This document shows, in pieces, positions 3,056-61,516 of a stretch of 64,000 nt of DNA. The notes under the pieces are model-generated. The model worked only from the letters and a program-made list of their open reading frames with translations, was not told where the DNA came from and did not search any database. Position numbers and translations under genes: made by a program. Position 1 is the first letter of the stretch, and each line of letters starts with the position of its first letter. This DNA is from Acorus gramineus. Its lineage: Eukaryota; Streptophyta; Magnoliopsida; Acorales; Acoraceae. Where the stretch lies: NCBI GenBank assembly GCA_030737835.1, contig JAUJYN010000018.1:930001-994000 (forward strand). The letters run 5' to 3'.

Positions 3056-3060
3056 ACTTT

Positions 3061-6045
3061 TGTCACGCCCCAGGGCGGCCGTCCCCGAGACGTGGCAATA
3101 ATGAAGTATCAGCTATCAATACCTGAGGTCAACAAAGACTCAAACAACAACACACAAGATGGCACAGCAAAGATAAATGATAACTGACTGAAAAGCGCAA
3201 GCATAAGATATCAACAATGTATGTAAACCAAAAACATTATTACAGACTCGAATACACAATCACTGTCTTGTGAGAGCCAAGTCTAGTCCAAATAAAATAC
3301 AACATGTGCCACATGCACGATTTACAATACATAATATGACTCTAGGACTGCTGACAGCCTCGCACTCGCCACCCGCCGGAAGAACGCTCCACGCCCATAA
3401 GACCACGCCATAGGGAAGCTCCAGCTCCACGCCCAACACTGCCCGTGAAAAGAAACAGTATGTGAGGGGTGAGCTACAAGCTCAATGAGTGGCTGGAAAC
3501 CAATCACCATTACAACAGTTCAATGTTAAGGCAATTTTCTTTCAAGGAAAACATGGGTAGAAACCCAATGGATAACAAGGTAACGCTGCGGCGCGACCAA
3601 CGTCACCCTCACCCTCACTCCCGGAGGAAGACTCTTGGGACTTTTGGGGAGAAACCATACCGTTGGTCGAAGAGGCGCAGAATTACTGGTCCACACAACA
3701 CTACTGGATCACCAACCTCACCCTCACCCTCACTCCCAGAGGGAGACTCTTGGGACTCTTGGGGAGAGACCATACCGTTGGTCGAAGAGACCCAGAATTA
3801 CTGGTCTACACAACACTACTGGATCATCTACATCGAGATAACTGCCCAACGATGTCTTTGAACATCGATACGCAACCGGACCCAACAACAATGGGAACGG
3901 ACAAACAACGAATGGGTCACGCGGCGACCTATCTTCACCTCATCCTCACCCTCACCCTTTAGAGGTGACATAGGACTTTTGGAGAGATTAGACTCCTCTA
4001 CACCCTTGGTCCACCGGTAGCCCTTTCCCCGGGTAGCCTCTACTTGGTATACTCCCATGATCAGTACGCTTCGGAACGTATCAGTGGTACCTACGGATGA
4101 GAGCCCGCTGTCAGGAGAGCTTTTCCAACGCCGGGAAGTTCCTACATCGGATCCAACGAAGGGGAGAACGATTTCATGCTCGCAATATCATTCGTTAGCC
4201 CTCTCCCGGGTAGCCTCTACCTGGTACACTCCCACGATTAGTACGCTTCCGAACGCATCGGTGGTACCTACAGATGGGAGCCCTCTGTCAGGACAGCTTT
4301 AACCTGGCCCGCTTCAACGCAGACGACATTGGGAGGAAACACTCCATGTTCGCAAAGCGAACCAATGGAAAAACAACTGCTCTCGTTAATCGCCTACTTA
4401 ATGCCCAAGCTACCGGTTTAACAAAACCGATACAACAAATGAATTCTCCTGAATTCCATTCAAGTGCATCCCACGGACGCAAGGGCAATTACATCGCTCG
4501 CACACTAACTAATGAGGTACATCCCAACGACGGGTCGTACCCACGCCTATTTCAGATAAGCCTATTTAGTTTTAACATATGCGTATATATAACAGGAGAA
4601 TCATATCATAGCTATGTGCATGAACAACATGCATACAAGGTATGGCCATTAATCATATAAGCACACAAGGCATAACTTAAGCATGCGTTGGATATCACCA
4701 ACTTAAAAAGGAAGGGTCAAGCACGATCTCGCGCACTAACAGGTGCATGCCAATATTCCAAACGAACCTGAGTCGAGTAGGAAATCGCATCTACTTACTC
4801 AATTCGTGCAGAGGGAGAGGGTGAGAGAGATCATCATCTCATGAAGTTGGTCATAGCTTTTCCCCATTAGCATGGGTACAACAACTACACCACGCCCTCG
4901 AGTCTTATCGCAAGGGAATATTAGGCAGGTGCCCGTCATTAACCCAGACTTAATCATGCTGGATATTCCAATTAATATGGTGGGAATAGTATTACAATAC
5001 TACCTAAGGCATGCTTATTCTATACATTCATGAAAACCCACATCACACATGCCCATACATGAAGGGCGCATGCATACCTAATAGTTCACACATGAACATA
5101 CATAGGCAAGTATATGGTAGAAAAGGGGGTTTCTACAAAATATACAAGCTTTACTAACCTAGCACGTAAATACTTAGCATATTATAGTTTAATCATGGCC
5201 ATACTACTTATCTTACACAAGTAGTATAGCTAGGGTGCCCCATCGATGCGCGACGCACGACTACCTGCCTCGAGCGCATCTCGAGGGGTTGGATCAAACC
5301 ACTCACCGATACCCGGATCGTCGCGCGTCCGGTCTACAAGATCAAAACAGGGGGAGGGAAATGGGGAGATGCGGGGTTCTCGACACACCCACAACCACCT
5401 CAACCACCACCACCACTACCACCACCTCATCAGCATCTCCTTAAGCCCCTTTCTCACTCTTTCTTGTGCTTCTTCTTCATCTTTTCCTTCAATTGCTTCT
5501 TCCTCCTCCTTCACACACAAAGAGGAGAAAAAAAAAGTGACCAAGAGAGGGAGAGAAGGTGTTCCACGAAATGGGAGAGAGGGGGAGAGAGAGAAAGGGC
5601 AAAAAGGTCATTTTCATGCCCAAATAGTGTCTAGGGGTGACCATAAGGGGGGTGGTGAGGTTAGGGTTAGGCTCACCCACTCACATACCAAAAGACCAAT
5701 GGTTTCTTCATCACTAAGCAAGGTGGGGGTAAGGTTACCAAAGGTCACCACATCCTCAAAATATCTCCCACTATTCGACCAACCAGGAACTCTCAAAACC
5801 CGGATACGGTTCGGAACTGCATATTTTTCAAAACGTTACCGGAATTCGATGAAAAATTTATGTGTAGTACTTAACAGTACCAGGACCCATAATATGCAGT
5901 TAGATTTTCAATCAGAGTACTCCAACTCCCGCAGGTAGCTAAAAGCCAAAATTTTAGTGACTCCGATCGAAAAAGAAAAAGGCCCTGAATGACCAGATGT
6001 GACCAAGGCTTAACCGAAATGGCTCCAAATGACACAGGCATAACA
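3061..6045 (-). repeat. 5' LTR of element A, 2985 bp
   Basis: It runs from tgtcacgcccc (3061) to ggcataaca (6045) on the plus strand, giving TG...CA ends. On the minus strand it carries the family's micro-exon-like cassette at 5307-5333 (AG acceptor on one side, GTGAGT on the other), and C-rich arrays at 3720-3960 that are the complement of the G-rich tandem units. Confidence 0.85.
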
Positions 6046-7053
6046 CTTAGACACTGAGTCAAAACCAGAATAGTCTACTAAGCCAGTAAGAGATTTGGAT
6101 GTTCACTTTATTACCTCATGGGCTTTATATGTGATATTCCAGCTTACTTACTATCTTTTACAGGGAGGCTTTCACTCTATCACTGTTGAATCGGTCTTTA
6201 AACTTCAACATAATGATTGCTAAGCTCTCTGTTCAAAGCACCTTAGATATTATCTCATTGAATTTTTTTTTCTTCTTCTTCTTTTTTTTTTTTTTTTTTA
6301 AAAAAGGTACTCTATCAATTTTTTTTTTTAAGACCTAATGATAAGTAGCCCTTTTCCACTGTACTTGTGATTCAATGGTTGCTTTTCAATTGATGTAAAC
6401 CCTAACTCCTTATCAAGCAAACCAATGAACTAGACTTTTAGGTTCAACAGGTTTTAGAAAGTTCTTAACATTCTAGGCAATTATTAAGTCGACTCCACAA
6501 ATTCATCTTAACTCAAAAATGCATCCAGATGTGTAGTGACTTTTCCAATATCAAGCACTTAAGACCTACTAAAATAGAAATTAACATAAGAGTTCATGCT
6601 ACCATCATAGGGATATAGGCATTTTTTTTTTTTTTTTTTTTTTTTTTGAATACTCTATCATAACCGAGAATGATGAATCACATGATAAATTCAAATTGTC
6701 AAAAAAAACCCCCAAACCTAATCCACACATTGTCCTCAATGTTCATATGTTTGGACACGAAATATCAAGAAAAGAGAATAAAAAAGGAAGAATTTTACCA
6801 TATCAAGTGATCACCATTGAACTGCTGCTATACGATGGCATCAAAACAATTTCATTAGTTCAACATATTTCAAAATAAAGACTACATCCAATGACTCGAT
6901 GATAGTGGATGCAAACAAACATAAAATCTAGACTGAAAAATAGAAAATTACCCTAACACCCCCAAACCTAGTTTACAGCATGAACAAGGAAATGATGATT
7001 CGGGAGGAAAGGCAACCCAGAAAAATATGGTACAAAACAATTATCAAGAGAGC

Positions 7054-8322: not shown

Positions 8323-9695
8323 CTAGGAAATTTTCCTTTCTCTCTCTCTCATGGTGGTGGCCAATTGACCAACTTGAATCTCGAGACGGGAGATTGCCTG
8401 TGTGGTGGATTGAAGGATTTGCCCTGTAGATTGCATAAATTGATTCAAAGTGGCAGACATCTGGGAGGATGATTGAGTTAGATTTTGAGTGGACTTCATA
8501 AGAACATCTAATCCTTTCTCAAAGAAGAACTTCTTCTCGTTTTCTATTTGAAAACCAGGCGGAGGAAATGGAGTAGGAATGGGTCCTGTGTTTGGTCTAG
8601 GATACATGAGAGCTTGAGGAGGTCCCTGTGGGCCTCCCTGGTGTGGGCCTTGAGTCCACGACAGATTTGGATGATTCCTCCATCCAGGATTATAAGTTTG
8701 AGCATATGGGTCATTTTTCCTCCACTGTAAGCTATTGGCATGTTCGGCCCAACTTTCCTTGTGGGATGACAGGGAAGGACAGTCTTCCGCTAGGTGATTT
8801 GAAGATTTACATAAAATGCAGACAATAGTAGAGTTGGAGGTGGAGACTTGATTAACAGAATCATGATTTGGTTTCATCTCTAGGGCCTCTACTCTACGAA
8901 TGAGAGATGCAAACTTGGCTTCAGACTCAAAGCTACTATCAATGGAATGAATACCTCCCTTAGAAGGCATGGTTTCTCGGGCTCTCTAATTGTCTCCCAT
9001 TGCATGGATTTTTCAGCTACTTCTTCCAAAAATGCCCATGCTTCAGTTTCATTTTTATTGGTAAATTCACCACTACACATTGATTCAACCATAGTCCTTG
9101 TGGTGTAATTCAAACCTTCATATAAAATTTGCACTAATCTCCAAACCTCAAATCCATGATGAGGACATTGCAACAACAAGTCCTTGAATCTCTCTAAATA
9201 TCTCCATAAAGATTCTCCCTCCTTTTGAATGAATTGATTTATATTCATGCGAATCTTAGCAGTTTTATGATTAGGAAAGAACTTCTTCAAAAATATCATA
9301 ACTAATTGATCCCAAGTGGTGATAGATTTTGCGGGTAGAGCATACAACCACTTTTTAGCATTATCTTTGAGGGAGAAGTTGATTAACCTCAACCGGATTG
9401 AATCATCAGTTAGCTGTTGAAGTTTTAGAGTGGAACAAACTTCCTCAAATTCCCTAATGAAAAGATATGGATCCTCAGATCCATCAAATTTTGGGAGCAT
9501 ATTAATCATCCCAGGCTTGATCTCAAAGTTGTTAGCATTGGTTGTTGGTAACACAATGCATGAGGGTTGCGTAGTTCTAGATGGATACATGTAATCCTTC
9601 AAGGTCTTTGGAATGACATCTACTGTGTTATCCATGGTGATGGTTGAATCGGTACGAATCAATCGGTTTTTAGAATCCCTAGACCAAATGCTCAT
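8323..9695 (-). pseudogene. Athila-like gag (capsid and zinc knuckle)
   Basis: Two overlapping minus-strand frames. 8889-9695 (268 aa) is a retrotransposon capsid domain with LPKFDGSEDPYLFIREFEEV, then WDQLVMIFLKKFFP and INQFIQKEGESLWRYLERFK, the classic plant Gag helices. 8323-8970 (215 aa) holds a CCHC zinc knuckle at residues 51-64 (CILCKSSNHLAEDC, spacing C-2-C-4-H-4-C), then a glycine/proline/glutamine-rich stretch and a C-terminal coiled-coil-like part. Gag would build the particle shell and bind element RNA. It lies just upstream of protease in element order. The frames are unusually long for a fossil, suggesting a moderate age. Confidence 0.8.
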
Positions 9696-10081: not shown

Positions 10082-13000
10082 TGTTGTGCCTGTGTCATTT
10101 GGAGCGCTCTGTTTGAAAATTTGGGTACATAATTTTTTTCCTAGAAGTTATGTATTTCCAATTTGGTATTTGGATTTGATTTTGTTAAAATCCAAGATGA
10201 AGAGGTTTAAATATGAGTTTACTATGAGATGTCCAGTTTTGAGTTAGCTTTCGTACAGAAGTGGAATTAGATCAACTGGATTCTTGTAGTAAAAGTTATG
10301 GGTATTTTTCCAAGTATACCCCGGGGATGGAAATTCTGGCAGCAGCCCTGCTCTATGTTTAGCTCTAATTTCGGAATAGCTGGAGAGATTATTTGATCTT
10401 GGCATGAACATGAAAGTTGTAGATAATCTTCTTAGCTTTCCATCGGCCTTGGAATTGTGCAATGCGGAGCTATATTCAGGAAGTTATGGCTGTTCCAGTG
10501 AAGCATGCGCAGAATTTCTAGTCAAAGGGCGACTAGGTCATTTCTCCTTTAGATATTTGTGATAAATATCTCTCTCTCTCTCTCTCTTCCCCTCTCACCC
10601 CCACGTCGACTAGCTTTTCTGGTCCCTCTTCCTCTCCTTCAAAAGCACACCAAGTGTTTGATGAAAGTCCCCAATGAGAAGAGAAGGTGGAGGAGGAAGT
10701 GGTGGTGGATCTTGGTGTAGATGTTGTTGTATTGGTTGTTTCTCCTCTCTCTCAAGCTCCCCTCATGATCCTTCCCCCCCCCCCCCATGTTTTTCAGCCA
10801 AGGAGAAGGCTGAGGAGAGGTGGTGGTGGTGGTGGTGGTCTCGGTGGCGGCGTTTCGGTGCGCGAAGGGCCCCTGAACCTCCCCCTTTCATTCCCCCTCC
10901 AAGGTGAGCTCCTCCCCTTCTTTTCTTGGTTTTCTTGGCTTAAGGGGTTGGTTGGGAGGTCATGCATGCTAGGTAGAGGTGTTAGGGTGTGTGTGAGGGG
11001 TTGGGAAGGGTTAAAATGGGGTTAGAGTTGGTTGGGCGTGCGTTTCGGGTCGTTTGCGCGCGTGCGCGGGGGTGCAAGCAGGTGCGCGCGGTTGCAGGCC
11101 CGAGCGGGGGTGCGAGCGGCGGTGCGCGCGGGAGTGCGCGGGAGTGCACTCGAGTGCGCGCGCGCGGGCAGGGCGCCTGGGAGCGGGGCTGGGGACCAGT
11201 GCGTGCGCGCGCGTGCGTGTGCGTGCGTGCGCGTGCTGGGGCGTGCGAGCAGGGTGCGTGCGTGTGCTGGGGCGTGCGTGGGGTGCTACGCGAGGGGCGC
11301 GGGCTGGACGTGCAGTGCGCGCGAGTGCGCGCACGTGTGGCAGCGCGTCTGGGCGCGCGGGCAGGGGAGCGACAGTGCGCCGAGGGTGTTGGGGTGCGTG
11401 CGTGCGTGCGCATTTGTGCGTGCACATGCGGGGGGCATGCGTGTGGCTGCCCAAGGGTTCGGGTAGGTGTCGGGGCACTCGGACTCGCGTGCGTACGTGC
11501 GTGCTCGCATCCGTGCGAGCCCGTGTGCAGGCTTGTCCGAGTATGGGGTATTTCTAATGTTTTCTATGTATAAATTGTGTTGTTTCTCACCAGTTTGGAT
11601 GCCCCTACCTTGCAGATCTCGTCGGATGGGATGCCCGAGGTCCCGGGTTGTTAAGGTTAGTGGTTTGATTCCAATCCCCCCCCCCCTCTCTATGGGTGCG
11701 CTCGACCCGCATAGACGTGCGTCGCGCATCGATGGGGGCCCCTAGCTAAATTATGTAGACACCTGTGCATGCATGATTAATATGATGTATCCATGCCACC
11801 TTAGACCTTGCAGGCTAGGGATATACACCCATACATCATGTATAGAGGCCCGTACATGCCTGGACACCATGTCATGTACTTAAGAGCCTTGATCTATGCA
11901 TGTTTTGCTATGATGTATCCATGCCACCTTAGACTTTGTATGCTAGGGATATGCACCCTTATATCATGTATAGCGGCCTATGCATGCCTAGACACCAAGC
12001 CCCGAGCTATGCATGTTCCCATCTAGTTTAATCTAATTAAATCAGAATGTGAGCATGCCTTAGAGAATATTGTAACCTTGTGGTTATGATATATGTCTCC
12101 CCGCATCTTAGGGGATTATGTGAGCATATTGTTGTTAGCATGCCTTAGAGAATATTATAACCTTGTTGTTATAATATATGTTTCCCCGCATCTTAGTTAT
12201 GCGCCCTGGAGGAATTCTGAAGAATTCATGTCATTTGTAGAGTTGAGATCGGTGTCGGCGGATCCAAGTGGATCGTATCCGTGTGGGTAGGCTATTTCTC
12301 TTCCCTTCGTTGGATCCGTGTAGGGACTCCTCAGCGTTAGACAGGCCGTCCTGACAGAGGGCTCCCATCAGTAGGCACCTCCTGATTTGGTTTCGGACTG
12401 TGCTGAATCAGGGGAGTAGACCAGGCGAGCTACGGTGTGGAGGAGAGGCTATCGGTGGACCAAGGGTGATTAACAGCCTAGTCTGTCCCAAAAGACTATG
12501 TTACCCTGTGAGGGTGAGGGTGAGGGTGTGGTGGGTCGGCGATGTAGCGACCCATTGGATTGTGTAGTTGCTGCCACTTAGAGGCTATGACTACTTTGAG
12601 GTTAATATGTGTGTGATATCTCGATAAGCGAGTATCGAGAGTGGTTGTTCGAGTTGACGAGATCGGGTTGCAGATACAACCCGGGAGAGGGTTAACGAAT
12701 GATGTCACGAGCGTGGAATCGCTCTCCCCTTCGTTGGATCCGCGTAGTGACATCCCCGACGTTAGACAGGCTATCCTGACAGAGGGCTCCCATCAGTAGG
12801 TACCTCCTGATTTGGTTTCGGACAGTGCTTAATCGTGGGAGTATACCAGGTAAGCTACGGAGCGGGGAGAGGCTACCGGTGGACTAGGGGTGTAGAGCAG
12901 TCTAAGTCTCTCCCAAAGTCCCAAAATGTCTCCTTTCGGGAGTGAGGGTGTGGATGAGGCGAAGACGCGTCGCCTCGTGACCCATTCGTTGTTCGACCAT

Positions 13001-13763
13001 TCCCATAGATGTTGGGTCCGGTCTCGTGATGGATGTTGAAGGACATCGATGGGCGATTATCTAGATGTAGATGATCCAGTAGTGTTGAGTAGACCAGTAA
13101 ATCCAGGTCTCTTCGACCGACGGCATGGTCCCTAGACCAGTAAATCTGGGTCTCTTCGACCGACGGTATGGTCTCTCCCCATAAGTCCCAAAAGACTCCC
13201 TCCGGGAGTGAGGGTGGGGGTGAGGTTGGTCGCGCCGCCGCGTGACCCAGTGATCATTGGGTTTCTACCCATGTTTTTCCTTGTAGAAGGGAATTGATTA
13301 TGTATTGAACTATAGACTGGTGATTGGTTTCCAGCCACTCACTGAGCTTGTAGCTCACCCCTCGCATACTGTTTCTTTTCAGGGGCAGTGTTGGGCGTGG
13401 AGCTGGAGCTTCCTGTGGCGTGGTCTTATGGGCGTGGAGCGTTCTGCCGGCGGGTGGCGAGTGCGAGGTTGTCAGCATTCCTAGAGTCATTTTATGCTTT
13501 GTAAATCGTGCATGTGGCACAGGTTGTATTTTCTTTGGTCTAGACTTGGCTCTCACAGGACAGTGATTGTGTATTCGAGTCTGTAATAATGTTTTTGATT
13601 TACAGACATTGTTTATATATTATGCTTTCGCTTTTCAGTCAGTTATCTTTATCTTGCTTTGCCGCCTTGTGTATTGTTGTTGGTGTCCTTATTGACCTCA
13701 GGTATTGATAACTGATATTACATTTTATTATTGCCACGTCTCGGGGACGCCTGGGGCGTGACA
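10082..13763 (+). repeat. Solo LTR S6 (~3.68 kb) inserted in the Athila-like element
   Basis: It starts tgttgtgcctgtg at 10082 and ends gcctggggcgtgaca at 13763. The bases ctca stand on both sides (gctca before, ctcaa after), close to a 5-bp target duplication. No primer site or internal region follows, so it is a solo LTR. In order it has a type I U3, CT-rich tract (~10571), donor-like GTGAGC (10904), CpG-rich block (11040-11470), micro-exon-like cassette (11616-11655), G-rich units (~12507), and a final acceptor (13381-13382). Confidence 0.85.
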
Positions 13764-14750: not shown

Positions 14751-15963
14751 TGTTATGCCGTGTCATTTGGAGCCTTTTTTTTTTTATCGGAGTCGCTAAA
14801 ATTTTGGCTTTTAGCCACCTGCAGGAGTTGGAGCGCTCTGATTAAAAATTTGGCTACATAATTTTTCTCCTAGAAGTTATGTATTTCCAATTTGGTATTT
14901 AGATTTAATTTTGTTAAAATCCAAGATGAAGAGGTTTAAATATAATTTTATCATGAGATGCTCAGTTTTGAGTTAGCTTTCATACAAAAGTGGAATTAGA
15001 TCAACTGGATTCATGTAGTAAAAGTTATGGGTATTTTTCCAAGTATACCTCGGGGATGAAAAATTCTGGCAGCAGCCCTGTTCAATGTTTAGCTCACATT
15101 TCGGAATAGCTGTAGGGATTATTTGATTTTGGCATGAACATGACAGTTGTAGATAATCTTCTTGGCTTTCCAGTGGACTTTTAATTGTGCAATTCGGAGC
15201 TATATTGAGGAAGTTATGGCTGTTCTAGTGAAGCATGTATAGAATTTCTAGTCAGGGATGAATTGGTCATTTGGATCCCTCTTTTGGATATTTATTTGCC
15301 CAAAAATATCTCTCTCTCTCTCTCTCCCTCCCGCGGGTGCGCACGGGCGCTGGCGCGAGCGGGGGTGCGCGCGGGGCGTGCGGGCATGCGTCTGGGAGCG
15401 GGACTAGGTGTTAGTGCGCGCGCGTGCGCATGCGTGGGGCTGCCCAGGGTCTCGGGTAGGTGCTAGGGCACTCGGGCATGCGTGCGTACGCGCGTGCTTG
15501 CATGCGTGCGAGCCCGTATGCGTGCATGTCTAAGTCTTTGGCATTTCTAGTAAATTCTAAGTGTTAAATTGTGATGTTACTCACCAAATTTGATGCCCCT
15601 ACCTTGAAGATCTCATCGGATGGGATGCGCGAGGTCCCGGGTTGTATGGTGAGTGGTTCGATCCAATCCCCCCCCCCCCCCTTCGGAATGCGCTCGACGT
15701 GCGTAGTCGCGCGTCGCGCATCGATGGGGCCCCCTAGCTATACTACTTGTGTAGATAAGTAGTATGGCCATGCTTAAGCTATAATATGTAGATATCTTGC
15801 ATGCTAGGCTTATATACATGTATTGTATTCATGTATGAATGATTGTGTTGCATGGGCCTCTCTAGTATGGGCATCTATGTTGTAAATGTGTATGGATGTA
15901 TAGAATATGGCATGCCTTAGGTAGTATTGTAATACTACTCCTACCATATTAATTGGAATATCC
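14751..15963 (+). repeat. LTR piece (plus), left part of a split LTR
   Basis: It starts tgttatgccgtgtc and carries type I U3 words, a CT tract at 15310, a short CpG-rich block (15330-15530) and the GTGAGT part of the micro-exon cassette near 15648. It stops at ggaatatcc, where a minus-strand LTR begins. Plus-strand LTR sequence resumes at 19610. Confidence 0.75.
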
Positions 15964-44754: not shown

Positions 44755-44759
44755 AAAGT

Positions 44760-44771
44760 TGGTATCAGAGC
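44760..44771 (+). other. Primer-binding site of element B (tRNA-iMet type)
   Basis: tggtatcagagc lies five bases after the 5' LTR end. It is the standard initiator-tRNA-Met site of plant Ty3/gypsy elements and matches the one in element A. Confidence 0.9.
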
Positions 44772-44872
44772 CTGGTCCTGTCAGAGCCAATGGTCTTCTT
44801 TCGTAGAGATGAGTCCTAGGATTTCGATATGAGTATTCTGATCCTAGTGTCTGGTTTTCTTGGGTTGCTGAT

Positions 44873-45900: not shown

Positions 45901-45952
45901 AAGGACTACCTTAGAAGCATCAAATTGATGGTGGATTAAGTGCGAGTTTTGG

Positions 45953-48378: not shown

Positions 48379-51300
48379 TGTTGTGTCTGTGTCATTTGGA
48401 GCGCTCTGTTTGAAGATTTGGGTACATAATTTTTTTTTCCTAAGTTATGTATTCCTGATTTGGTATTTGGATTTGATTTTGTTAAAATCCAAGATGAATA
48501 GGTTTAATTATGATTTTATTATGAGATGTCCAGTTTTGAGTTAGCTTTCGCACAGAAGTGGAATTAGATCAACTGGATTCTTGTAGTAAAAGTTATGGGT
48601 ATTTTTCCAAGTATACCCCGGGGATGGAAATTCTGGCAGCAGCCCTGTTCCATGTTTAGCTCTAATTTCGGATTAGCTAGAGGGATTATCTGATCATGGC
48701 ATAAACATGAAAGTTGTAGATAATCTTCTTAGCTTTCCATCGGTCTTGGAATCAAGCAATTCGGAGCTGTATCGGGAAGTTATGGCTGTTCCAGTGAAGC
48801 TTGCGCAGAATTTCTAGTCGGAGGGCGACTTAGTAAAATTTCCTTAGATATTTTGATAAATATCTCCTCTCTCTCTCTTCCCCTCCCAATGTGCACGTCG
48901 ACCAGCTTTTCTTGGCCCTCTCTTTCCTCATTCAAGCCCCCTAGGTGTTTGGTTTAATGCCTCAAAGAGAGATGGTGCAAGTGCATGAGTTGGGTTGTGT
49001 GGGTGTGTTGTTCTGTTTGTTCTCCCCTCTCTCAAGCTCCCTTGCATGGATCTTCCCCCCCTGATTTTCAGCTGAAGAGGAGGCTGAGGGGTGGTGGTGG
49101 TGGTGGTGGTCTCGGTGGCGGCGTTTCGGTGCGCGAAGGGCCCCCGAACCTCCCCCTTTGTTCACCCTCCAAGGTGAGCTCCTCCCCTCCTTTTCTTGAT
49201 TTTCTTGGCTTAGGGGGATGTTGGGAGGGTCATGCATGCTAGGTAGGGGTGTTTGGGTGTGTGTGAGAGGTTGAAAGGGGTTAAAATGGGGTTAGAATGG
49301 CTTGGGCGCGAGCTGGGAGTCGTCTGCGCGGGTGCTGGCGCGAGTGGGGGTGCGCGCGGGGGCGCGCGGGCGTGCGCGCGCGCGCCCAGTGCGCCTGGGC
49401 AGTGCGCCTGGGCGCTGGGTAGGGAACCAGTGCGCGCGCGCGCGTGCATGCGCGTGCGTGCGCGTGCTGGGGCGTGCTGGGGCATGCTGGGGCGTGCTGG
49501 GGCAGTGCGCGGGGTGCTGCGCGAGGGGCGCGGGCTGGACGCGCGGTGCGCGTGGGCTCGCGCGAGCGTGCGCGTGCGTGCGGGTGTGCGTCTGGGCGCG
49601 CGGGCACGCGCGCGGCAGTACGCCGATGGTGCCGGGGTGTGTGCGTGCGTGCGCATTCGTGCGTGCGCATGCGGGGGGCCATGCGAATGGCTGCTCGAGG
49701 GTTCGGGTAGGTGTCGGGGCACTCAGACTCGCGTGCGTACGCGCGTGCTCGCATGCGTGCGAGCCCGTATGCATGCTTATCCAAGTTTTGGGTATTTCTA
49801 AGCATTTCTATATATAAATTGTGTTGTTTCTCACCCAGTTGGATACCTTGTCTTGCAGATCTTGACGGACGGTCGCGCGACGACCGATCTCCGGTGAGTG
49901 GGACGATCCAACCCAGTAGGGAGGCGCTACATGCACTTGGGCGTGTACCGTCCTCCCCTGGGGCACCATAGTAAATATTAACCTGTTTAATATGAAAAGC
50001 TATGAAAGCATGATAATCTATAGTATGCATGCCACCCTAGATTTGTATGCTAGGACTTATACCTTTAGGACCCGTATAAGAACCATGCACCCTGTTATCA
50101 TGTTTCCATGCTAGGAAAGCCCCGACCGATGCATGTTCCCATTTAGTTAATTTATTTAAATAAATGCGAGCACGTGATTATTAGTCTGTTTTAGTGAATA
50201 TTATAGGGGAGGGGCCTCGCGAGGACAGCGGTGAGACCCGGGCTAGGGTACTCCGTGTTCCTTGTTTGGTTGTCGGGATGTCCTATATCGGGACCTCACG
50301 CTGCCCTCCCAAGGATTTCTTTCCCCGTTAATATTCCAACCTCCTTATTGTTATAATGCATGTTCCCCGCATCTTGGTTATGCGCCCTGGAGGAATTCTG
50401 AGGAATTCAGGACATTAGAGTTGTTAGGATGTGTTGTCTGCGGATCCGAGTGGATCATATGCGATGGATAGACTGTTCTGTTCCCTTCGTTGGATCCGTG
50501 TAGAGACTACCCCGGCGTTGGAAAGGCTGTCCCGTGCAGGGGCTCCCATCAGTAGGCACCTCCTGATTTGGTAGACGGACTGTGCTGAATGTGGGAGTGG
50601 CCAAACGGCCTACGGAGTGGGGAGAGACTATCGGTGGACCAAGGGTGACCATCAGCCTAGTCAGTCCCAATATCCTATGTCACCTGTTGAGGGGTGAGGG
50701 TGAGGGTGTGGTGGGTCGGCGATGTAGCGACCCACCGGTTTGTAAGTCCCAATATCCTTTGTCACCTATTGAGGGGTGAGGGTGAGGGTGTAAGTGGGTC
50801 GGCGATGTAGCGACCCACTGGATTTTGTGTAGTGATGTTTATCAGTCCCAATATCCTTTGTCACCTATTGAGGGGTGAGGGTGAGGGTGTAGTGGGTCGG
50901 CGATGAGGCGACCCACTGATTTGTGTATAGATGATTATCAGGCTAGTAAGTCCCAACATCCTTTGTCACCTATTGAGGGGTGAGGGTGAGGGTGTGGTGG
51001 TTCGGCGATGTAACGACCCACCGGATTTGTGTTGTTCATGCCACTTAGAGGCTTTTGCTGATAAATGGTGGTTAATATGAACTGTGATGCATGGGTTGTG
51101 CTATTCACTGAGCGTGTGGCTCACCCCTCGCATAATTATTTTCTCCAGTTATCACTGAGGCGGACTTGAAGGAGGAGCTCCCCGAGAGAGACTACACCAG
51201 TAGCGGAGTAGCGCCACGTCCCGCGAGTTATAGAGGCTATCAACACCCCTTTTTGGATTGTATGTATTATATTCCGTGCTTGGGCACGCGGTTGTATTTT

Positions 51301-51547
51301 ATTTGGATGTCTTTGTATATATTGGCTCTCACAGGACAGTTGATTATGTATCGAGTCTGTAATATGTTTTTGGATTACAGATTCAGTCTTTTAGCTTCCG
51401 CAATTGGTGTATATATCATGTCAGCCCTGCTTTTGTTGTTGTGTTGTCATTTTAGCTGTTGTGTGAGTATGTTATTGAACTCCTGTTTATACTGATATCA
51501 TATATACACTTGCCGCGTCCCGGGGACGGCCGCCCTGGGGCGTGACA
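48379..51547 (+). repeat. 3' LTR of element B, 3169 bp
   Basis: TG...CA ends. Contents in order: type I U3; CT tract (~48870); exon-1-like segment ending in donor AAG/GTGAGC at 49174; CpG-rich block (49310-49770); micro-exon 49859-49893; a single copy of the cgtgttccttgtttggttgt segment (50206-50330); four tandem G-rich/hairpin units (50662-51030); acceptor CAG at 51146-51148; terminal 400 bp. This is the best copy for studying the LTR's internal plan. Confidence 0.9.
50662..51030 (+). repeat. Tandem G-quadruplex/hairpin units in the LTR
   Basis: Four units start agtcccaatatcc or agtcccaacatcc (50662, 50743, 50843, 50948). Three contain a canonical four-run G-quadruplex motif (50691-50715, 50773-50797, 50872-50896; loops tga, tga and 6-7 nt), overlapped by a hairpin with arms gtgggtcg and cgacccac. 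The first hairpin is at 50711-50735. In the fourth unit the last G-run is short. Confidence 0.85.
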
Positions 51548-54324
51548 TATGGGCTCCTATACATGATACATGGATGTATATCCCTAGCATACAATGTCTA
51601 ACATGCCATGGGTACATCATAGCAAAACATGCATTAACAAGATATCTACATATCATAGCTAGGGGGCCCCATCGATGCGCGACGCGCGTCTACGCGCGTC
51701 GAGCGCATTCTTAGGGGGGGGGGGGGATTGGAATCAAACCACTCACCTTACAACCCAGGACCTCGCGCATCCCATCCGACGAGATCTGCAAGGTAGGGGC
51801 ATCAATTATGGTGAGTAAACTACACAAATATACATGAAATTTACTAGAAATGCCAAATACTCAGAAAAGCATGCATACGGACTCGCACGCATGCGAGCAC
51901 GCATGTACGCACGCGAGCCCGAGTGCCCCGACACCTACCCGAACCCTTGGGCAGCCACACGCATGGCCCCCCGCACGCGCACGCACGCACGCACGCGCCC
52001 CAGCACCTTCGGCGCACTGCCACGTGCCTGCCTGCGCGCCCGCACACTGCGCGTCCAGCCCACGCGCCCTCGCACGCACTGCGCGCCCGTGTAGAACCCC
52101 GCGCATGCTCCAGCACGCGCACGCATGCGCACGCACGCGCGCGCGCGACTGGCCCCAAGCCCCGCGCCCAGGCGCACTGCCCCGCGCGCACGCACACTCG
52201 CACGCGCACTCCCCGCGCGCACCCACGCGCCCACTCCGCGTGCACCCGCGCGCTCGCGCGCACGCGTCCGCGCGGGTCTGCGTGCCCGCCTGCGCCTGCC
52301 AACGCCCTTCTGCGCGCGCAGACTGCCTCCAACACGCGCCCAGCCTCTCCCAACCTCTTTTTAACTCTCCCCAACCCCTCACACATACTCTAACCCATAT
52401 GCATAGCATGCATGACCTCCCCAACCATCCCAACAACCCTAAAAATAAAAAAGAAGGGGAAGAGGACTTACCAAAAGAGGGAAAGGGAAAGGGGGAGATG
52501 CGGGGCTCTCGACGCGCCCATGACCACTTCAACCACCACCACCACCACCACCTCTTCAGCCTCTCCTCAGCCTCCTTCTTGGCTGCAAAATCAGGGGGGG
52601 GAAGTCATGAAAAGGAGCTTGAGAGAGGAGGATCAACAACACAACACACCCACACAAACCTTCTTGTGCTTCCTTCTTCACCTTCTCCTTCACTTCTCTT
52701 TGAGAACTTATCACAAACACATGGGGGGGCTTTGAAAGAGAGAAAGAGAAGCCAAGAATGTTGACGTGGGGTGTGGGAGAGAGAGGGAGAGAAGATATTT
52801 GTTGCACAAATAAATATCTAAAGAGGGATGGAAATGACCATTTCATCCCTGACTTAGAAATTCTGCGCATGTTTCACTGGAACAGCCATAACTTCCTCAA
52901 TATAACTCTGAATTGCACAATGCAAAGTACGTTGGAAAGCCATGAAGATTATCTACAACTTTCATGTATATGCCAAGATCAACTAATCTCTCCAGATATT
53001 CCGAAATTAGAGCTAAACATAGAACAGGGCCGCTGCCAGAATTTTTCATCCCCGGGGTATACTTGGAAAAATACCCATAACTTTTACTACATGAATCCAG
53101 TTGATCTAATTCCACTTTTGTACGAAAGCTAACTCAAAACTGGACATCTCATAATAAAATCATATTTAAACCTCTTCATCTTGGATTTTAACAAATCAAA
53201 TCCAAATACCAAATCGGAAATACATAACTTCTAAGAGGAAAATTATGTAGCCAAATTTTCAATCAGAGCGCTCCAAATGACACAGGCATAACAATGCGGG
53301 CACGGCGACACCCCTATATACCCAAGAAACCATGCACACACACACCATTCAAACATAAACACAAACACATGGCATGCATAGACTACCCAAACCCTCAAGG
53401 GACAACAATTACCAACAAAATGCAAGGAGGGACGAAGGCTCACCTAGAAAGAGAGAGGGTCAAGGGAGGGGGCACCATCACTCCCAAGTGCACACAACCT
53501 CACCATCCAAGCCATCCACCTCTTTCGACCACCTCCATCAACATGTCCACCACTAATCCTTGCTGTCCCAACACCACGAGAGAAAAAGAAAGGAAGGCAA
53601 ATGGTGTTAGAAGGCAAGGGTGGCCAAAGAACAAAGGCACACACACACATCTTCACACACCAACACATACCTTCACTTTCTCCATCACTACATGCCCAAA
53701 ACACACCCCAAAAGGGGCTGGACCAGAGAGAAAAGAGAGAGGGACAACCACTTAAGAACACAAGCACACAAAACCCACCTCAAGATCTCCTCTTCTTGCA
53801 CTACTTCCTTCTTGTTCTCCTTCTTCTTGCTCCTTCTCCACCAAACACTCACACACACAAAATGGGAGTGAAAGAGAGGCAAAAGAGAGGAAGAGAGGCA
53901 AAAGGAGTGATTTTTGGATGGAGAGAGAGAGGGGTGTGCAAAGGGTGACAAAAGTCACTTGGGGGGTGCGGGTGCACACAAGGGAAAAATAGGGGGGGTG
54001 AGGTTAAGCATAAAGTCACCCACACTCAACAACTTTTATATGCTTTATTGGGAACCGTTAAGTGAAGAATCACATACTCGAAAATATCCCACCCACTAAA
54101 ACCCAGTAACGGCCAAACCCGGATACGATTCAGAACTGCATATTTTCTGAAACGTTACCGAAATTCGATGAAATTTTTATGGGTAGTACAAAACGGTACC
54201 AGGATCCATAATACACAGTTAGATTTTCAATCAGAGCACTCCAACTCCCGCAGGCAGCTAAAAGCTAAAATTTTAGCAACTCCAATCGAAAACAAATAAG
54301 GCTCCAAATGACACAGGCACAACA

Positions 54325-55148: not shown

Positions 55149-56216
55149 GTGAGAGCTAAATCCCGAGTTACTATTCATCATCCCTACCAAAGTGATTTTC
55201 TCTCTCCCCTCTCTCTTTTTCTCACTTTCAAGCCCCCTAGACCCCTCAAACCAAAAAACCTAAAGCACGGGAAGTGTAGATCGGGTCCCGATCTACACAC
55301 CGGTGTCTTCAAATCCCGTTTTCGGCGATCCTAGCCTCCCCGACCTCCCCTCTTTGTCCTCTGATTTGGCCCGTTTTGAAGGGCAAGGTAGATCGGGGCG
55401 TGAGAGAACCTTTGAGAAAGGTTTCGGCGCACGAAGAGCCACCGAACATCTTTCCCTCCCCTCGGTAAGTCTCCTTTCCCTCTTTTTCTTGCATAGATGT
55501 ATGCTAGGGAGGTGGATCTAGGGTTGGGTGGTGGTCGGCGGCGGTGGGTGGCCGTCGGAGGGCTGTGCGAGGTGGTCGGAGGCCTTGGGGTGGCCGGTGG
55601 GTGGTGGTTGAGGTGCTCGGGCAGGGTGGCTGGTGGCAGCAGCACAGGCAGCAGGCGCAGCAGCTGGCAGGGGCGCGCGCGCGCGCGTGCGCGCGGACGT
55701 GGGCGCGGGCGTGCGCGCGGGTGGAGCTGGGCGCTGGCAGGCGCAGTCGGGCGCGCAGTCGCGCGCGGGGGCGTGCGCGCGGGTGCGCGGGTTCGCGCGT
55801 AGCGGGCGCGCGGGTGCTGGCGCGAGCGGGGGTGTGCGCGGGAGTGCGCGCGGGTGCCGGGCAGGGCGCCTGGGCATGCGCCTGGGCGCTGTGCTGGGGA
55901 CCAGTGCGCGCGTGTGCTGGGGCGTGCGTGCAGTGCGCGCGGGGGCGCGCTGGGCTGGACGCGCGGTGCGCGCGGGCGCGCGCGAGCGTGCGCGTGCGTG
56001 CGGCAGTGCGTCGGGGCGCGCGGGCTGAGGCGCGGCGGCGCATCCGAGGGCGGGTGGCCGTGCGGGTGGTAGCCGGAGTGCTCGGGCTAGCGTGCGTGCG
56101 GGTCGTATGCACGTTTGCCCGAGTGTTGGGAGTTTAGTTGTGGGTTTATGTAAGTTCTTGTGTATTTTGTAGTATTTGTGGATTTTAACTCACCATATTG
56201 AATGTCTATCTTGCAG

Positions 56217-56252
56217 ATCTAGACGGGCGGTCGCGCGACGACTCAGATACTG
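56217..56252 (+). other. Micro-exon-like cassette in LTR S4 (36 nt)
   Basis: The upstream side is pyrimidine-rich and ends ttgcag. The downstream side is gtgagtgg. Counterparts: 11616-11655, 20957-20995, 37742-37777 and 49859-49893 on plus; 5307-5333, 18066-18104, 51747-51785 and 60247-60283 on minus. Length varies from 27 to 40 nt, but the splice-like borders are kept. Confidence 0.5.
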
Positions 56253-57914
56253 GTGAGTGGGACAATCCAACCCAGTAGAGAGGCGTTATACGCACTTGGG
56301 CGTATACCGACCTCTCCTGGGGCACCGTGGATGTATATTAACCTGCAATAATATGTAATCCATGCTTGTATGATTAAATTGTAGAATGCATGCTACCCTA
56401 GACTTTGCATGTTAGGGACTTGCACCCTTAGGATATGTATATGAGCCATGCACCATGTCTCCTGTTACATGTTAGGAAACCTCGACCTGTGTATGCGTCC
56501 TACTAGTTTATTTATTCAATTAAATGCTAGTGTATGTTAAATCGCATGCCTTAGGTAATATTATCGGGAGGAGCCTTGCGAGGACAGCGGTGAGACCCGT
56601 GTTAGGGTACTCCGTGTTCCTTGTTTGGTTGTCGGGATGTCCTGTATCGGGACCTCATGCTGCTCTCCCAAGGTTTCTAGTCCCAATAATATTATATGTA
56701 ATGTTGTATGTTTGGTATAATTATTAGCATGAGTAGTGAATATTATAGGGGAGGGGCCTTGCGAGGACAGCGGTGAGACCCGCGTTAGGGTACTCCGTGT
56801 TCCTTGTTTGGTTGTCGGGGTATCCTGTATCGGGAACTCACGCCGCCCTCCCGAGTTTCTTTCCCCCAATGATATTCCAACATTGCTTTTGATTGTACTT
56901 ATTTCCCCGCATCTTGGATATGCGCCCTGGAGGAACTCTGAAGAGTTCATGACATTTGAGTGGTAGAGATGTATTGTCGGCGGATCCGAGTGGATCATAT
57001 GCGTATGGATAGGCTGTTCTGTTCCCTGCGTTGGATCCGGTAGAGGCTACCCCCAGCGTTAGAAAGGCCGTCCTTCAGAGGACCCACATCAGTAGGCGCC
57101 TCCCGATTTTTGTGACGGACTGTGCTGAAGTTGTGGGTGGAGACCAAGCGGCCTACGGAGTGGAGGGAGAGACTATCGGTGGACCAAGGGTGACCAACAG
57201 CCTAGTCAGTCCCAAAATCCTATGTCACCCGTGGTAGGGTGAGGGTGAGGGTGTAGTGGGTTGGCGATGAGCGACCTACTGGATTTGTGAATAGATGATT
57301 ATCAGTCCCAATAGCCTATGTCACCCATTGATGGGTGAGGGTGAGGGTGTGGTGGTTCGGCGAAGTACGAACCACTGGATTATGTTGTTATGTCTTGGAG
57401 ATTGGATAAATAATGGAATTGTGGTAAATATAGTCTGTGATGCATGGGTTGTGCTGTTCACTGAGCGTGTGGCTCACCCCTCGCATATGTTTTTCCCCAG
57501 TTGCCACTGAGCCTGAGCTGGAGCCGGAGCAGCAGTTGGAGCTTTCCGAGGGATTTCTTCAGTAGCGGAGCAGCGCTACGTCCGCGAGTACCAGAGGCTG
57601 TCAGCATCCCTTTCCTTGGCTGTATGTATTTTATTTCCGTGCTTGGCACGTGTCTGTATATATATTCAGTTGTTTCCATGTATATTGGCTCTCACAGGAC
57701 GTATGATTGTGTATCGAGTCTGTAACATGTTTTGGGTTACAGACTCAGTTTTAGCTTCCGCTATTTTGTGTATATATTATGTCAGCCTTGTTTGATATCT
57801 GTGTTGTCATTTTTATCTGTGGTTTAGAGTATATGTGTTTGACCTCATGTGTAGGCCTCTGATATGATATATACACCTGCCGCGTCCCGGGGACGGCCGC
57901 CCTGGGGCGTGACA

Positions 57915-57931
57915 AAGTCCAGGATCCCCAG
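57915..57931 (-). pseudogene. LINE fragment between S4 and S5 (17 bp)
   Basis: Only aagtccaggatccccag separates the two LTRs. Read in reverse it supplies the residues ILD that link KAGGLG (61517 onward) to LTAANN (54876 backward). Its left five bases are the S4 target copy and its right five (cccag) the S5 copy. Confidence 0.85.
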
Positions 57932-60900
57932 TGTCAAGCCCCAGGGCGGCCGTCCCTGAGACGTGGCAATATATACAATATCAGCTATCAATACAAGAGG
58001 TCAATAAAGACGCTAATAAAACATATGAGGCTAAAAAAGCAATGATAACTGATAGCTCACTGAAAAGCGAAAGCATAAAACATCACTAAGTCTGTAAATC
58101 AAAATATTATTACAGACTCGAATACACAATCGCTGTCCTGTGAGAGCCAAGTCTAATCCAAATAAAATACATCATGTGCAACACGCACGATTAACAAATA
58201 CATGACTCTAGGACTGCTGACAGCCTCGCGCTCGCCAACCGCCTGACGGAACGCTCCACGCACGCAAGACCACGCCACAGGGAAGGTCCAGCTCCATGCC
58301 CAACACTACCCATGAAAAGAAACAGTACGCGAGGGGTGAGCTATAAGCTCAGTAAGTGGCTGGAAACCAAACACCATTACAACAATTTAATACTAAGGCA
58401 ATTTCTTTTCAAGGAAAATATGGGTAGAAACCCCAAGGATAACAAGGTCACGTGACGACGTGACCAAACCTCGTCCTCGCCCTCACTCCTCGGAGGGAGG
58501 CTTTTGGGACACTCAGGGAGGAACAACTATTAACCATAACACATGGTGTTACTGGTTAAGAAGATACAACGAGTCCATCTGCTACGAGGTAGAGATATAC
58601 TTCGATACCTCAAGTGTTAGGAGCTGCATACCCAGAGTATACTCGATGGGTATAAGAGTCACGTGACGACGTGACTTCAACTTACCCTCACCCTCACCAC
58701 TAAGGGTGACATGGGACTCTTGGGAGAATCCTTTCGCTCTACACCCTTCGTCATCCGGTAGCCCTCTCCCGAGTAGCCTCTACCTGGTATACTCCCATGA
58801 TCAGTACATCTACCGAACGCATCGATAGTACCTACAAGTGGGAGCCCTCTATCAGGACAGCTTCAACGCGGATCCAATGAAGGGGAGAATGATTCCACGC
58901 TCACAATATCGTCCGGTATCCCTCTCCAGCGTAGCCTCTACCTATCGACCTTCCACAATCGGTACATCCACCAGATGGGTATAGCAGTACGCATCGGTAG
59001 CACTTACAAGTGGTCGCGCTACACAGGATAGCTTCAACGCTGGGCAGCCTCGGTGCACGACGATATTTGGAGGAAGACTTCACGTTCGCAATGCGAACCC
59101 TATGGAAAATCAACTATCTTAGGTAATCCCATACCGATGCTATCGAAATACGCTTGAACTCCCATAGAGATGCGTCGCTCAGACACAGGGAGTCACCTCT
59201 GCTCTCGCACAGAGATAAGCCCTAAGGCATAATCCAACAGGCGGTTCAGACACTCGCCCAACCTGGGTAAGCCTAGCTTAATGCCATAACTATCGGTTTA
59301 ACAGACCCGATATGACAATGAATTTTTCTGAATTCCACTCAAGTGCATCTCTCGGATGCAGGGTGGCGGTTATATCGCTCGCGCTCTAACTAATGAGGTA
59401 CAACTCGACAGCGGGTCGTACCCACGCCTATTTCAGATGGGCCTAAATAGTTTTAACATGCGCGATAACATATGATTAATTATAGGGTACTTCCTTACAT
59501 GAATATGCATCATAAACAATAAATTATGCAACACACATACAAGGCATGGCCTAACTACACATGCATATGAGGCACATTACTCATATAAGCACACAAGGTA
59601 TAACTTAAGCATGCGTTGGATATCACCGGCTTAAAAGGGAAGGGTTAAGCGCAATCTCGTGCACCAACTGGTGCATGCCGATAATCCCAAGCGGACCTGA
59701 GTCAAGTAGGAACCACATATACTTACTCAGTTTCCGCAAAGAGGGAGGGCGAGAGAGAGGGAAAGTCTCATCCTCTTCGAAAGCTGGTCATAGCTTTGCC
59801 CCAACAAGATGGGTGCAACAACCATACCACGTCCTCCAGTCTTATGACCAGGGAATACTAAGTATGCACCCGGTTATTAACCCTGGTTTAATCATGCTAG
59901 ATATTACGAACATAGGGAGGTAGTACTATAAATAGGGACTACCTAAGGCATGCATATTCTATACATTCATATAAACACACATCACACATTCCCATATATG
60001 AAGGGCGCATGCAAACATAATAATTCACACATGAATATGATTCATAGGCAAGTATATGGTAGAAAAGGGGGTTCTGCGCAATATACGAGCTATACAAACC
60101 TAGCATGAAAATATCTAGCATATTGTGGGTTGGACATGACCATACTACTTATCTTAATAGGTAGTATAATCAGGGTGCCCAACGGATGCGCGACGCACAA
60201 CTACGTGCATCCAACGCTTCCCGAAGGGTTGGATCGAACCACTCACCTAACGACCCATTCATCGCGAGTTCCGCCAACGAAAGCTGCAAAACACAACCAA
60301 TGATGCTCAATTAAAATATGGAACCTCCTGACACACATATAAGTTTACTTCATGAAGAGCCTAACTCTTGATAGTTTCCACAACATGCATAACAACTCCT
60401 TGACACACAATCGAGCAAAACTGCTAAACCTGCTGCAACCAGCCCTACTATTTGATCTCCACAGCACCAAATACACATCCACAAATTATGAAATAAATCA
60501 TACACATTCTCTAACATGCTGGGATCATAATCCATGAAGACATTATAACCTAACTTTGCCTCTACATGCCTGAAATAAATTATTTCCAGAAGCAGGTCAA
60601 CTCCCAAGCGAATTTGGACAGGCCATGAAAAACAGGTTCTAACTTACAACACAGATATCATAATGACCCCAAATTTCATATATACTATCTAGGCACATGA
60701 AGGAACATATCATATGAGGACACAATCCAAAACATATACCTCTAAATACTAGTTTCACAGATATCTTTACAAGAGAGAGATCTGCTTTACCAAAAGAGGG
60801 GGAGGGAAATGGGGAGATGCGGGGTTCTCGACACACCCACGACCACCTCAACCACCACCACCACTACCACCACCTCATCAGCATCTTCTCAAGCCCTTCA

Positions 60901-61516
60901 TGGCTGAAAACAGGGGTGTAAAGGGGGTATGAGAGGGAGATAGAGAGAAGAGAAACAACAACAACAACAACAACAACACACACACTCACCCTTTTTGCAC
61001 TCTCTCTTGTGCTTCTTCTTCTTCTTTTCCTTCTTTAACAACACACACACACACACACACACAAAACAGAGAGGGACAGGGAGAGGGAGAGGGAGTGAGA
61101 GAGTGAGGGATTTTCTCACTTGGGGGGGGGGGTGATGAGAAGGAAAAAAAAGGGGGTGAACTTAAGCTTATTCTCACCCTCTAACACTCAAAAATAACCA
61201 AAGGTTGCTTAACCCTTAAGCAAGGGGGGGGGGGGTGAGGTTACCAAAGGTCACCATATTCACCAAAATATCTAACACTATTCGACCAACCAAACCAAGA
61301 ACTCTCAAAACCCGGATACGGTTCGAAACTGCATATTTTTCAAAACGTTATCGGAATTCGATGAAATTTTTATGGGTAGTACAAAACGGTACGAGGACTT
61401 ATAATATGCAGTTAGATTTTCAATCAGAATACTTCAACTCCCGCAGGTAGCTAAAAACCAAAATTTTAGCAACTTCAATCGAAAAATATAAGGCTCCAAA
61501 TGACACGGGCATAACA
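57932..61516 (-). repeat. Solo LTR S5 (~3.6 kb) in the LINE
   Basis: Plus-strand ends are tgtcaagcccc and ggcataaca. Flanks are cccag and cccaa, a 5-bp duplication with one difference. Minus-strand micro-exon 60247-60283 lies between TTTTGCAG and GTGAGT; a donor-like GTAAAG is the complement of 60785-60790. Unlike its sisters it has an unrelated AT-rich stretch (60290-60780) where the CpG block normally lies. Type II U3, as in element A. Confidence 0.87.

Follow-up and report, generated by a model that had tools for sequence, protein, structure and literature searches.

The first intron in the leader of an abundant Ty3/gypsy family of long terminal repeat (LTR) retrotransposons in Acorus gramineus is very probably a true spliceosomal intron, as judged from the DNA copies of the family. 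The stretch analysed, called here the window, comprises 64,000 nucleotides (contig JAUJYN010000018.1, positions 930,001 to 994,000 of the forward strand; C56:930001-994000). It is a nest of LTR retrotransposon pieces and holds many LTRs of this family (TG...CA, about 3.2-3.7 kb). Genome-wide patterns were run over the 398.6-Mb assembly. In the intron-bearing LTRs, exon 1 is followed by GT[AG]AG, about 0.5-0.75 kb (intron 1), TTGCAG and a micro-exon of 35-40 nt, and then by GTGAGT, 1.2-1.8 kb (intron 2), pyrimidines with CAG, and exon 3 up to the LTR end. At 78 places in the genome the sequence matches exon 1 joined directly to the micro-exon. The LTRs on which the argument turns are the following.

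10082-13763 (+): subfamily A LTR, which looks solo, with the 4-nt CTCA on both flanks; exon 1 ends at 10903
10904-11615 (+): intron 1 of this A copy (AAG/GTGAGC ... CCTTGCAG/ATCT), 712 nt, exactly absent in other copies
11616-11655 (+): micro-exon of the A copy, 40 nt; its right border is GTTAGT here and GTGAGT in most others
11656-13382 (+): intron 2 of the A copy, with exon 3 at 13383-13763
48379-51547 (+): subfamily B LTR, the 3' LTR of an element whose 5' LTR remnant ends at 44754
49174-49858 (+): intron 1 of the B LTR, followed by micro-exon 49859-49893, intron 2 49894-51148 and exon 3 51149-51547
3061-6045 (-): D-type LTR without intron 1, 2985 bp; exon 1 ends at 5343, micro-exon 5342-5307, intron 2 from 5306
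1-386 (-): beginning of the 3' LTR (L061) belonging to this D element, continuing past the window; also without intron 1, with the same junction
3043-3056 (-): primer-binding site TTGGTATCAGAGCC after the D 5' LTR, which fixes the LTR orientation, with the LTR end at 3061

Genomic copies that lack intron 1

If RNA of the LTR is spliced and then reverse-transcribed, the genome should contain LTRs without exactly the predicted intron. A junction pattern composed of the last nine bases of exon 1 and the first 14 of the micro-exon (CCCTCCAAG/ATCTYGWCGGAYGG), with up to two mismatches, occurs at 15 places genome-wide (five exact, two with one and eight with two mismatches). The TTTTG/ATCT form of the join is found at 63 more (21 exact, 19 with one and 23 with two mismatches), of which 44 have a D-type, 18 an A-type and one a B-like micro-exon. 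Reversed-pattern controls returned 0 in both searches. The intact exon-1/intron border of the AAG type, CCCTCCAAGGTGAGC, has 839 exact places, with a control of 0. The join was confirmed at all 22 loci that were read around the junction (10 of the AAG form and 12 of the TTTTG form, six of the latter taken by place and six returned by the search); beyond these, the window copy and its partner LTR, the remainder of the 78 places rest on the matched letters. The window copy, the D-type LTR 6045-3061(-), has a different exon-1 end, CCCTGTTTTG/ATCTTG, shared by its 3' LTR, and the TTTTG-form search recovers both LTRs of this element.

The end points of the missing segment are GT...AG to the base, with a border homology of 1-2 nt (G or AG). 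Exon-1 ends and micro-exons are combined in at least three clearly different pairings (AAG with A, AAG with B, and TTTTG with A or D), so that recombination could have spread them from one old deleted copy only by crossovers at the junction itself or a few bases away from it. LTR lengths fit the loss of an intron, at 2985 bp for the D copy and 2493 bp for a copy on C55 against 3682 for A and 3169 for B. If an intron-less leader was reverse-transcribed, both LTRs of an element should lack the intron, which is the case in the two elements examined, the window D element (LTRs 95.5% identical over the first 1431 nt and rearranged further on) and the C55 pair (98.97% identical over 2325 nt). The C55 locus (157195-165816 and beyond) reads LTR-internal-LTR, with intron-1-less B-type LTRs, and continues into a second primer-binding site, as in a tandem array, and is for that reason weaker evidence than the window element. 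A simple insertion flanked by a target duplication is not what this locus shows, since the second primer-binding site stands after the second LTR and no duplication is readable.

Past the junction, 22 of 23 intron-1-less copies (10 AAG-form, 12 TTTTG-form and the window copy) go on into the beginning of intron 2. The donor of intron 2 is mutated in a few of them (for example L050, L069, L070 and L072), and L063 has a deletion within the micro-exon that crosses the intron 2 border. As a separate observation, in the D-type copies L063 and L064 the LTR is fused to an inverted LTR start at one shared breakpoint, about 18 nt before exon 1 ends.

Among the fetched copies, the nearest intron-bearing relative of the intron-less L048 is the window LTR 19609-15964(-), to which it is 93.1% identical downstream; the corresponding values are 94.4% for L053/L054 with L040 and 90-93% for L049-L051 with L018. 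Upstream, the same intron-less copies are less close to these relatives (83-88%). In downstream trees, copies without intron 1 are placed among A (L048, L049-L051, L052 and L056), among B/E (L053/L054 beside L040) and in a D clade. The fewest changes number six in the tree of 50 rows (11 intron-less; at least four forced by starred branches) and seven in that of 62 rows (23 intron-less; at least five forced). The upstream tree of 40 rows, 11 of them intron-less, needs five (at least four forced); its row L010, with a branch of about 2.5-2.9, is most likely a wrong donor call and should be disregarded. The D clade is intron-less in 14 of 15 rows of the 62-row tree, and the intron-bearing X copy 20280-23089 falls in it.

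Repeated exact removal at a GT-AG border points to spliced RNA that was reverse-transcribed. The reading that fits the 78 joins, their spread over several subfamilies and their presence in both LTRs is that RNA spliced of intron 1 was reverse-transcribed and integrated. The sequence-only reading from which we started had proposed a leader spliced before gag, with unspliced RNA serving as the genome. The first part is borne out for intron 1 by its exact absence in several subfamilies; for intron 2 it has motifs and conservation in its favour, and no copy without intron 2 was seen. The second part needs amendment, as RNA without intron 1 appears to have served as genome; it would still apply to intron 2, whose start the 22 copies retain.

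The cassette in the window

The family is very abundant, as indicated by 3926, 6146 and 5548 candidates for three LTR probes in a genome-wide first look (40 scored for each). The LTRs named beforehand start with TGTTGTG and end with GTGACA, and the polypurine tract AAGGGGGGAA stands before the start of the 3' LTR; these ends and the tract, with the primer-binding site, which we take to be of the initiator-Met type, are marks of an LTR retrotransposon. The orientation given previously is correct, since TTGGTATCAGAGCC adjoins the LTR ends at 44754(+) and 3061(-). Further features of the window are these.

44759-44772 (+): primer-binding site after the B-type 5' LTR that ends at 44754
44873-45298 (+): start of a gag-like open reading frame (ORF; MPPRG...), 118 nt past the LTR end, 142 codons without a stop
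15964-19609 (-): second A-type LTR; intron 1 18796-18105, micro-exon 18104-18066, intron 2 18065-16342 (acceptor AAG)
20280-23089 (+): X-type LTR, 5' truncated; TTTTG/GTAAGT at 20446, micro-exon 20957-20995, exon-3 acceptor 22712
51548-53293 (-): X-type LTR, 3' truncated; intron 1 52471-51786, micro-exon 51785-51747
37520-39433 (+): subfamily E LTR fragment; micro-exon 37742-37777, exon-3 acceptor 39023
55465-57915 (+): subfamily E LTR from the exon-1 border on (LTR start not fixed); intron 1 55465-56216, micro-exon 56217-56252, intron 2 56253-57500, exon 3 57501-57914
57932-61516 (-): subfamily C LTR (outer end as in the sequence-only reading); micro-exon 60283-60247 (TTTTGCAG/.../GTGAGTGG)

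The order of donor, micro-exon and pyrimidine-rich acceptor recurs in window LTR copies on both strands, as had been claimed. Nine micro-exon copies have a left border of the TTG..G type and the right border GT[GT]AGT; they lie at 11616-11655, 15610-15648 (left border decayed to AAG), 20957-20995, 37742-37777, 49859-49893 and 56217-56252 on the plus strand and at 60283-60247, 51785-51747 and 18104-18066 on the minus strand. Five micro-exon coordinates reported earlier were exact to the base, and each of six acceptor positions was the G of a CAG. The list of donors held in part: '20456' was shifted by 10 nt (GTAAGT begins at 20446), and '53438' lies outside the cassette, upstream of an LTR that starts at about 53293 on the minus strand. 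The LTR 6045-3061(-) is without intron 1 and reads CAC at its exon-3 acceptor position. Two further minus-strand copies read CAT and ACAAG there; CAT is that of the subfamily C LTR 57932-61516(-), in which no exon-1 donor was identified.

In a recount over 52 stretches (40 fetched LTR copies, 20 A and 20 B, plus 12 window stretches), the micro-exon is recognisable in 41, with a left AG in 38 and a right GT in 40 of these; a donor GT[AG]A[GA][CT] is present 450-820 nt upstream in 28 of the 41, and the conserved block preceding the exon-3 acceptor in 39. Copies in which no match was found may be truncated, nested or decayed. The donors recognised are GTGAGC, GTGAGT, GTAAGT and GTAAGC, with decayed exceptions such as GTGAAC in L036. 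Intron 1 runs from AAG/GTGAGC, TTTTG/GTAAGT or TCG/GTAAGT to TTGCAG/ATCT, with GT...AG ends.

Two other readings of the micro-exon were set aside. Its lengths of 35, 36, 37, 38, 39 and 40 nt share no common frame, and a coding exon is rejected on that ground. A tRNA-like reading was suggested by GGTTCGATCC, a motif after the micro-exon that resembles the B box of RNA polymerase III promoters; ARAGORN finds no tRNA in the window, the sole Rfam match to reach the gathering score is at another site, and most B and E copies have GGGACAATCC in place of the motif.

Besides the gag-like start at 44873, a decayed pol is present in the window. A copy on C2 has long open frames, among them a gag-like frame of 537 codons, and its two stop-to-stop pieces contain RVP_2, RVT_1 and RT_RNaseH, then Integrase_H2C2, rve (below cut-off) and SH3_Tf2-1; this order of protease, reverse transcriptase, RNase H and integrase is that of Ty3/gypsy. 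The end of the protease and the reverse transcriptase also share one open frame in L074. The 5' LTR of the C2 copy contains TTGCAG/micro-exon/GTGAGTGG and the pyrimidine-CAG acceptor of exon 3. Among 150 copies scored of 3798 candidates, many have a gag-like frame of only 160-162 codons, often with identical scores, and others with open frames of about 440-537 codons exist beside them. The short-gag copies seem to form a large non-autonomous subfamily in which a truncated gag is conserved.

Elsewhere in the window, 9151-9254 (+) matches the plant small nucleolar RNA (snoRNA) snoR71 of Rfam at 42.5 bits (gathering score 40), antisense within the gag ORF (8889-9695, minus) of a different Ty3/gypsy element; possibly this is a snoRNA model overlapping retrotransposon sequence. 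ORFs at 62053-62712 and 63244-63966 (-) were named by eye as reverse transcriptase and endonuclease resembling those of a long interspersed nuclear element.

Conservation of the borders and the case for intron 2

The sequence-only reading had further stated that the introns vary strongly while the borders stay, and had suggested comparing the borders with the rest of the LTR. Five pairs of copies (two A-B, three with E) were compared by ranking windows of 13 nt. Some borders do rank high, and the statement fails in the A-B pairs in that intron 1 is more alike than the micro-exon. For A-B the percentiles are 95th-96th for donor 1, 87th-88th for acceptor 1, 58th-63rd for donor 2, and 0 (misaligned) and 29th for acceptor 2. 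The three E pairs place acceptor 1 at the 80th-97th, donor 2 at the 67th-78th and donor 1 at the 23rd-46th percentile (two of three misaligned); acceptor 2 is misaligned in two and at the 59th in one. Among 13 divergent copies, donor 2, G/GTGAGTGG, ranks first in conservation among 107 9-mer windows (0.991, the mean being 0.778), in rows that were located through the GTGAGTGG-type donor motif itself with at most two of 14 mismatches. The comparison is thus favourable for donor 2 among divergent copies and unfavourable for the borders as windows between subfamilies. A single GTRAGY in 3.7 kb is, by our own estimate, not rare. Since the border windows are unexceptional between subfamilies and intron 1 is itself conserved between A and B, conservation alone is insufficient, and the case rests instead on the copies exactly without intron 1.

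Intron 2 is probably a second spliceosomal intron, to judge from its borders, which are GT...AG except in some C and D copies. No genomic copy free of it was found. Either the splicing drawn here does not take place, or RNA that has lost intron 2 seldom if ever serves as a genome; the latter fits the idea of separate RNA pools. The two longest matches to a query of joined exon 2 and exon 3, on C59 and C54, were considered as spliced copies and proved to be donor mutants.

A candidate acceptor closer to gag is present just before the gag start.

44852-44872 (+), and relatives: TTTTCTTAG/GTTGCTGAYATG

The form TTAG/GTTGCTGAYATG has its AG in two A copies, the D element and L058, and the C55 element has one extra base after the AG; five B-type short-gag copies, that of the window included, read TTGG. 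Splicing to this site would remove the primer-binding site, and the element could therefore not record it.

Within exon 1, a stretch of about 100 nt ends in some copies in a pyrimidine tract and CAG (...TGATTTTGCAG) and is absent from L055, L056, L057 and the window D copy 6045-3061(-). A third, upstream LTR intron of about 100 nt is possible.

Points against the reading and alternative explanations

Several observations weigh against a leader spliced at these sites. The removal of intron 1 is read solely from DNA copies. Thirteen of the 41 micro-exon copies have no pattern-matching donor 450-820 nt upstream, and the exon-1 donor of the long-frame copy L058 was unmatched by three donor patterns. 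Intron 1 has an identity of 84% and 79% in the two A-B pairs against 67% for the micro-exon, and it is GC-rich (0.66-0.68 in five copies), which is unusual for a plant intron. As for intron 2, some C and D copies have CAC, CAT or ACAAG in place of the exon-3 AG. A direct join of the micro-exon to exon 3 occurs nowhere in the A form or the B form with at most three mismatches (the C, D and E forms were not searched), a join of exon 1 to exon 3 of A is found at 0 places genome-wide with at most two, and a 75-base query of joined exon 2 and exon 3 gave no spliced copy among 40 scored of 1459 candidates. The upstream gap of L057 is imprecise, without a clean junction, and the donors of the stretch of about 100 nt vary. 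The trees are quick ones over a subset of the 78 places, with midpoint roots and support from the Shimodaira-Hasegawa-like approximate likelihood ratio test (SH-aLRT) only; in the 62-row tree, branches are long and placement unsure for four of the intron-less rows. The intron-less D-type lineage, which makes up 44 of 63 places, is large and may go back to a single old event or even represent the older state.

The most serious alternative, to which we give a minor though appreciable chance, is that only intron 1 is real: the micro-exon would begin a long second exon that reaches gag, and GTGAGTGG and the CAG near the LTR end would be conserved for other reasons or be weak sites. It would account for the searches, which returned no intron-2-less copy against 78 intron-1-less places, and for the decay of the exon-3 AG in some C and D copies. 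It sits less well with donor 2 as the most conserved 9-mer around the micro-exon, even with rows found by that motif, and with the branch-point-like CTCACC that A, B and E have 24-25 nt upstream of both acceptors (counted by eye). The tracts before the exon-3 CAG likewise differ in their letters among these subfamilies and remain pyrimidine-rich.

It is rather unlikely that the micro-exon donor is joined mainly to TTAG/GTTGCTGAYATG before gag. Such splicing would skip the primer-binding site and yield pure mRNAs that can never be reverse-transcribed, which would explain why no loss of intron 2 is seen among genomic copies; the AG is indeed present in the copies named above, C55 having its extra base, whereas the five B-type short-gag copies with TTGG, including that of the window, speak against it.

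An ancestral intron-free state, with a gain of intron 1 in the other subfamilies, appears improbable. The deep D-type clade is nearly all intron-less, as this would require; yet the intron-less copies nested in A and B look derived under midpoint roots, intron 1 is homologous between A and B, and the intron-bearing X copy 20280-23089 stands within the D clade. An inserted piece with these borders would, moreover, still be an intron. Chance deletion, or recombination off one old deleted LTR, without any splicing, is the least credible account: the D-type lineage could be one event, LTRs do recombine and some copies have different nearest relatives upstream and downstream, yet the GT..AG end points are exact in at least three clearly different pairings, the border homology is 1-2 nt, the intron-less copies are nested in separate subfamilies and the reversed controls are 0.

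A proposed route from transcription to gag

On the reading that the leader is spliced, the following route can be proposed. In the A copy a putative promoter stands well inside the LTR.

10561-10605 (+): predicted TATA-like GATAAATATC (10561-10570, which is LTR 480-489 in the A copy) and, next to it downstream, a CT-rich tract

The predicted transcription start lies near LTR position 510-520, past the GATAAATATC box and the CT-rich patch. Exon 1, about 290-310 nt long on the assumed start, would be spliced to the micro-exon of 35-40 nt, and this in turn probably to exon 3, which begins some 380-415 nt short of the LTR end and roughly 0.5 kb upstream of gag. Intron 2 would also be removed, mainly in RNA used as mRNA, and RNA that keeps at least intron 2 would be the replicating form. 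In the five of six copies that were measurable, with the start assumed 38 nt after the start of the box, the unspliced leader to gag has 2.7-3.2 kb and 57-73 ATGs; without both introns it has 0.81-0.85 kb and 12-14 ATGs. Removal of both introns would therefore shorten the leader about 3.2-3.9-fold and take out most upstream ATGs, and translation of gag may thereby become more feasible. Such a role in gag expression is plausible, given the gag-like ATG 118 nt past the LTR end 44754 and the many ATGs of the introns. Taken as a whole, with its introns, the translation of gag and the replicating form, we regard this mechanism as about evenly poised between right and wrong. More speculatively, and with the balance tilted against it, the introns might form a switch in which an RNA without intron 1 can still be packaged and reverse-transcribed, loss of intron 2 commits an RNA to translation and retention of intron 2 labels the genome.

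How one RNA can be both message and genome is an open question for LTR retrotransposons. With introns in the LTR, splicing would act before gag and on the part of the RNA that templates new LTRs, and splicing events would therefore be permanently recorded in DNA. With dozens of such records in this family, the question of which spliced RNAs are packaged would become countable from the genome. On the speculative switch reading, each intact solo LTR would also be a self-contained three-exon transcription unit, provided that both introns lie in the repeated part found at the two RNA ends. There are at least hundreds of LTR copies, given the 839 exact exon-1 borders, and their splice sites could thus be drawn into nearby genes.

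Comparison with known systems

The family resembles the Tekay (Del) chromoviruses in its Ty3/gypsy domain order and its SH3_Tf2-1-like integrase end, and in the initiator-Met-type primer site and long LTRs of that lineage. Its membership is a presumption, and no chromodomain was seen in the long-frame piece scanned, which ends at a stop codon. Splice sites inside R/U5 of a retroviral LTR are found in the leader intron of the human and simian immunodeficiency viruses HIV-2 and SIV and in the splice donor in R of the human T-cell and bovine leukaemia viruses (HTLV, BLV). These are vertebrate retroviruses with regulatory genes, whereas the Acorus family is Ty3/gypsy, with a micro-exon and LTRs of more than 3 kb.

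In the literature, mostly open-access papers, we found no description of introns inside plant LTRs. Plant LTR elements are generally intron-less, with Ogre and EVADE as notable exceptions, in the accessible text of a 2025 review (PMC12786077). Spliced plant elements discussed in the available part of PMC3735527 are BARE1, Bagy2, Ogre and CRR, none of them described there with an LTR intron; the portion of PMC6317226 at hand likewise describes no LTR intron for the Tekay clade. Ogre (Ty3/gypsy, Tat) is comparable to the Acorus family as a Ty3/gypsy element of plants whose spliceosomal intron is spliced in part (PMC6317226, PMC12786077). The Ogre intron is internal, between the gag-pro and the reverse transcriptase-RNase H-integrase ORFs, whereas the one studied here lies within the LTR leader. 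In BARE1 and EVADE (Ty1/copia) splicing splits the RNA into pools for translation and for replication, according to the available passages of PMC3735527 and PMC12786077; their intron is in coding sequence, where its removal knocks out pol or removes the protease, and not in the LTR as in the Acorus family. Sunflower Tyran and Varan have alternatively spliced RNA, with two introns in the short isoform, as found by direct RNA sequencing; this splicing is reported for ORF-bearing isoforms, and no LTR intron appears in the accessible text (PMC7730604). What is new is therefore the place: facultative splicing of an LTR element, known in kind, here very probably lies inside the LTR itself.

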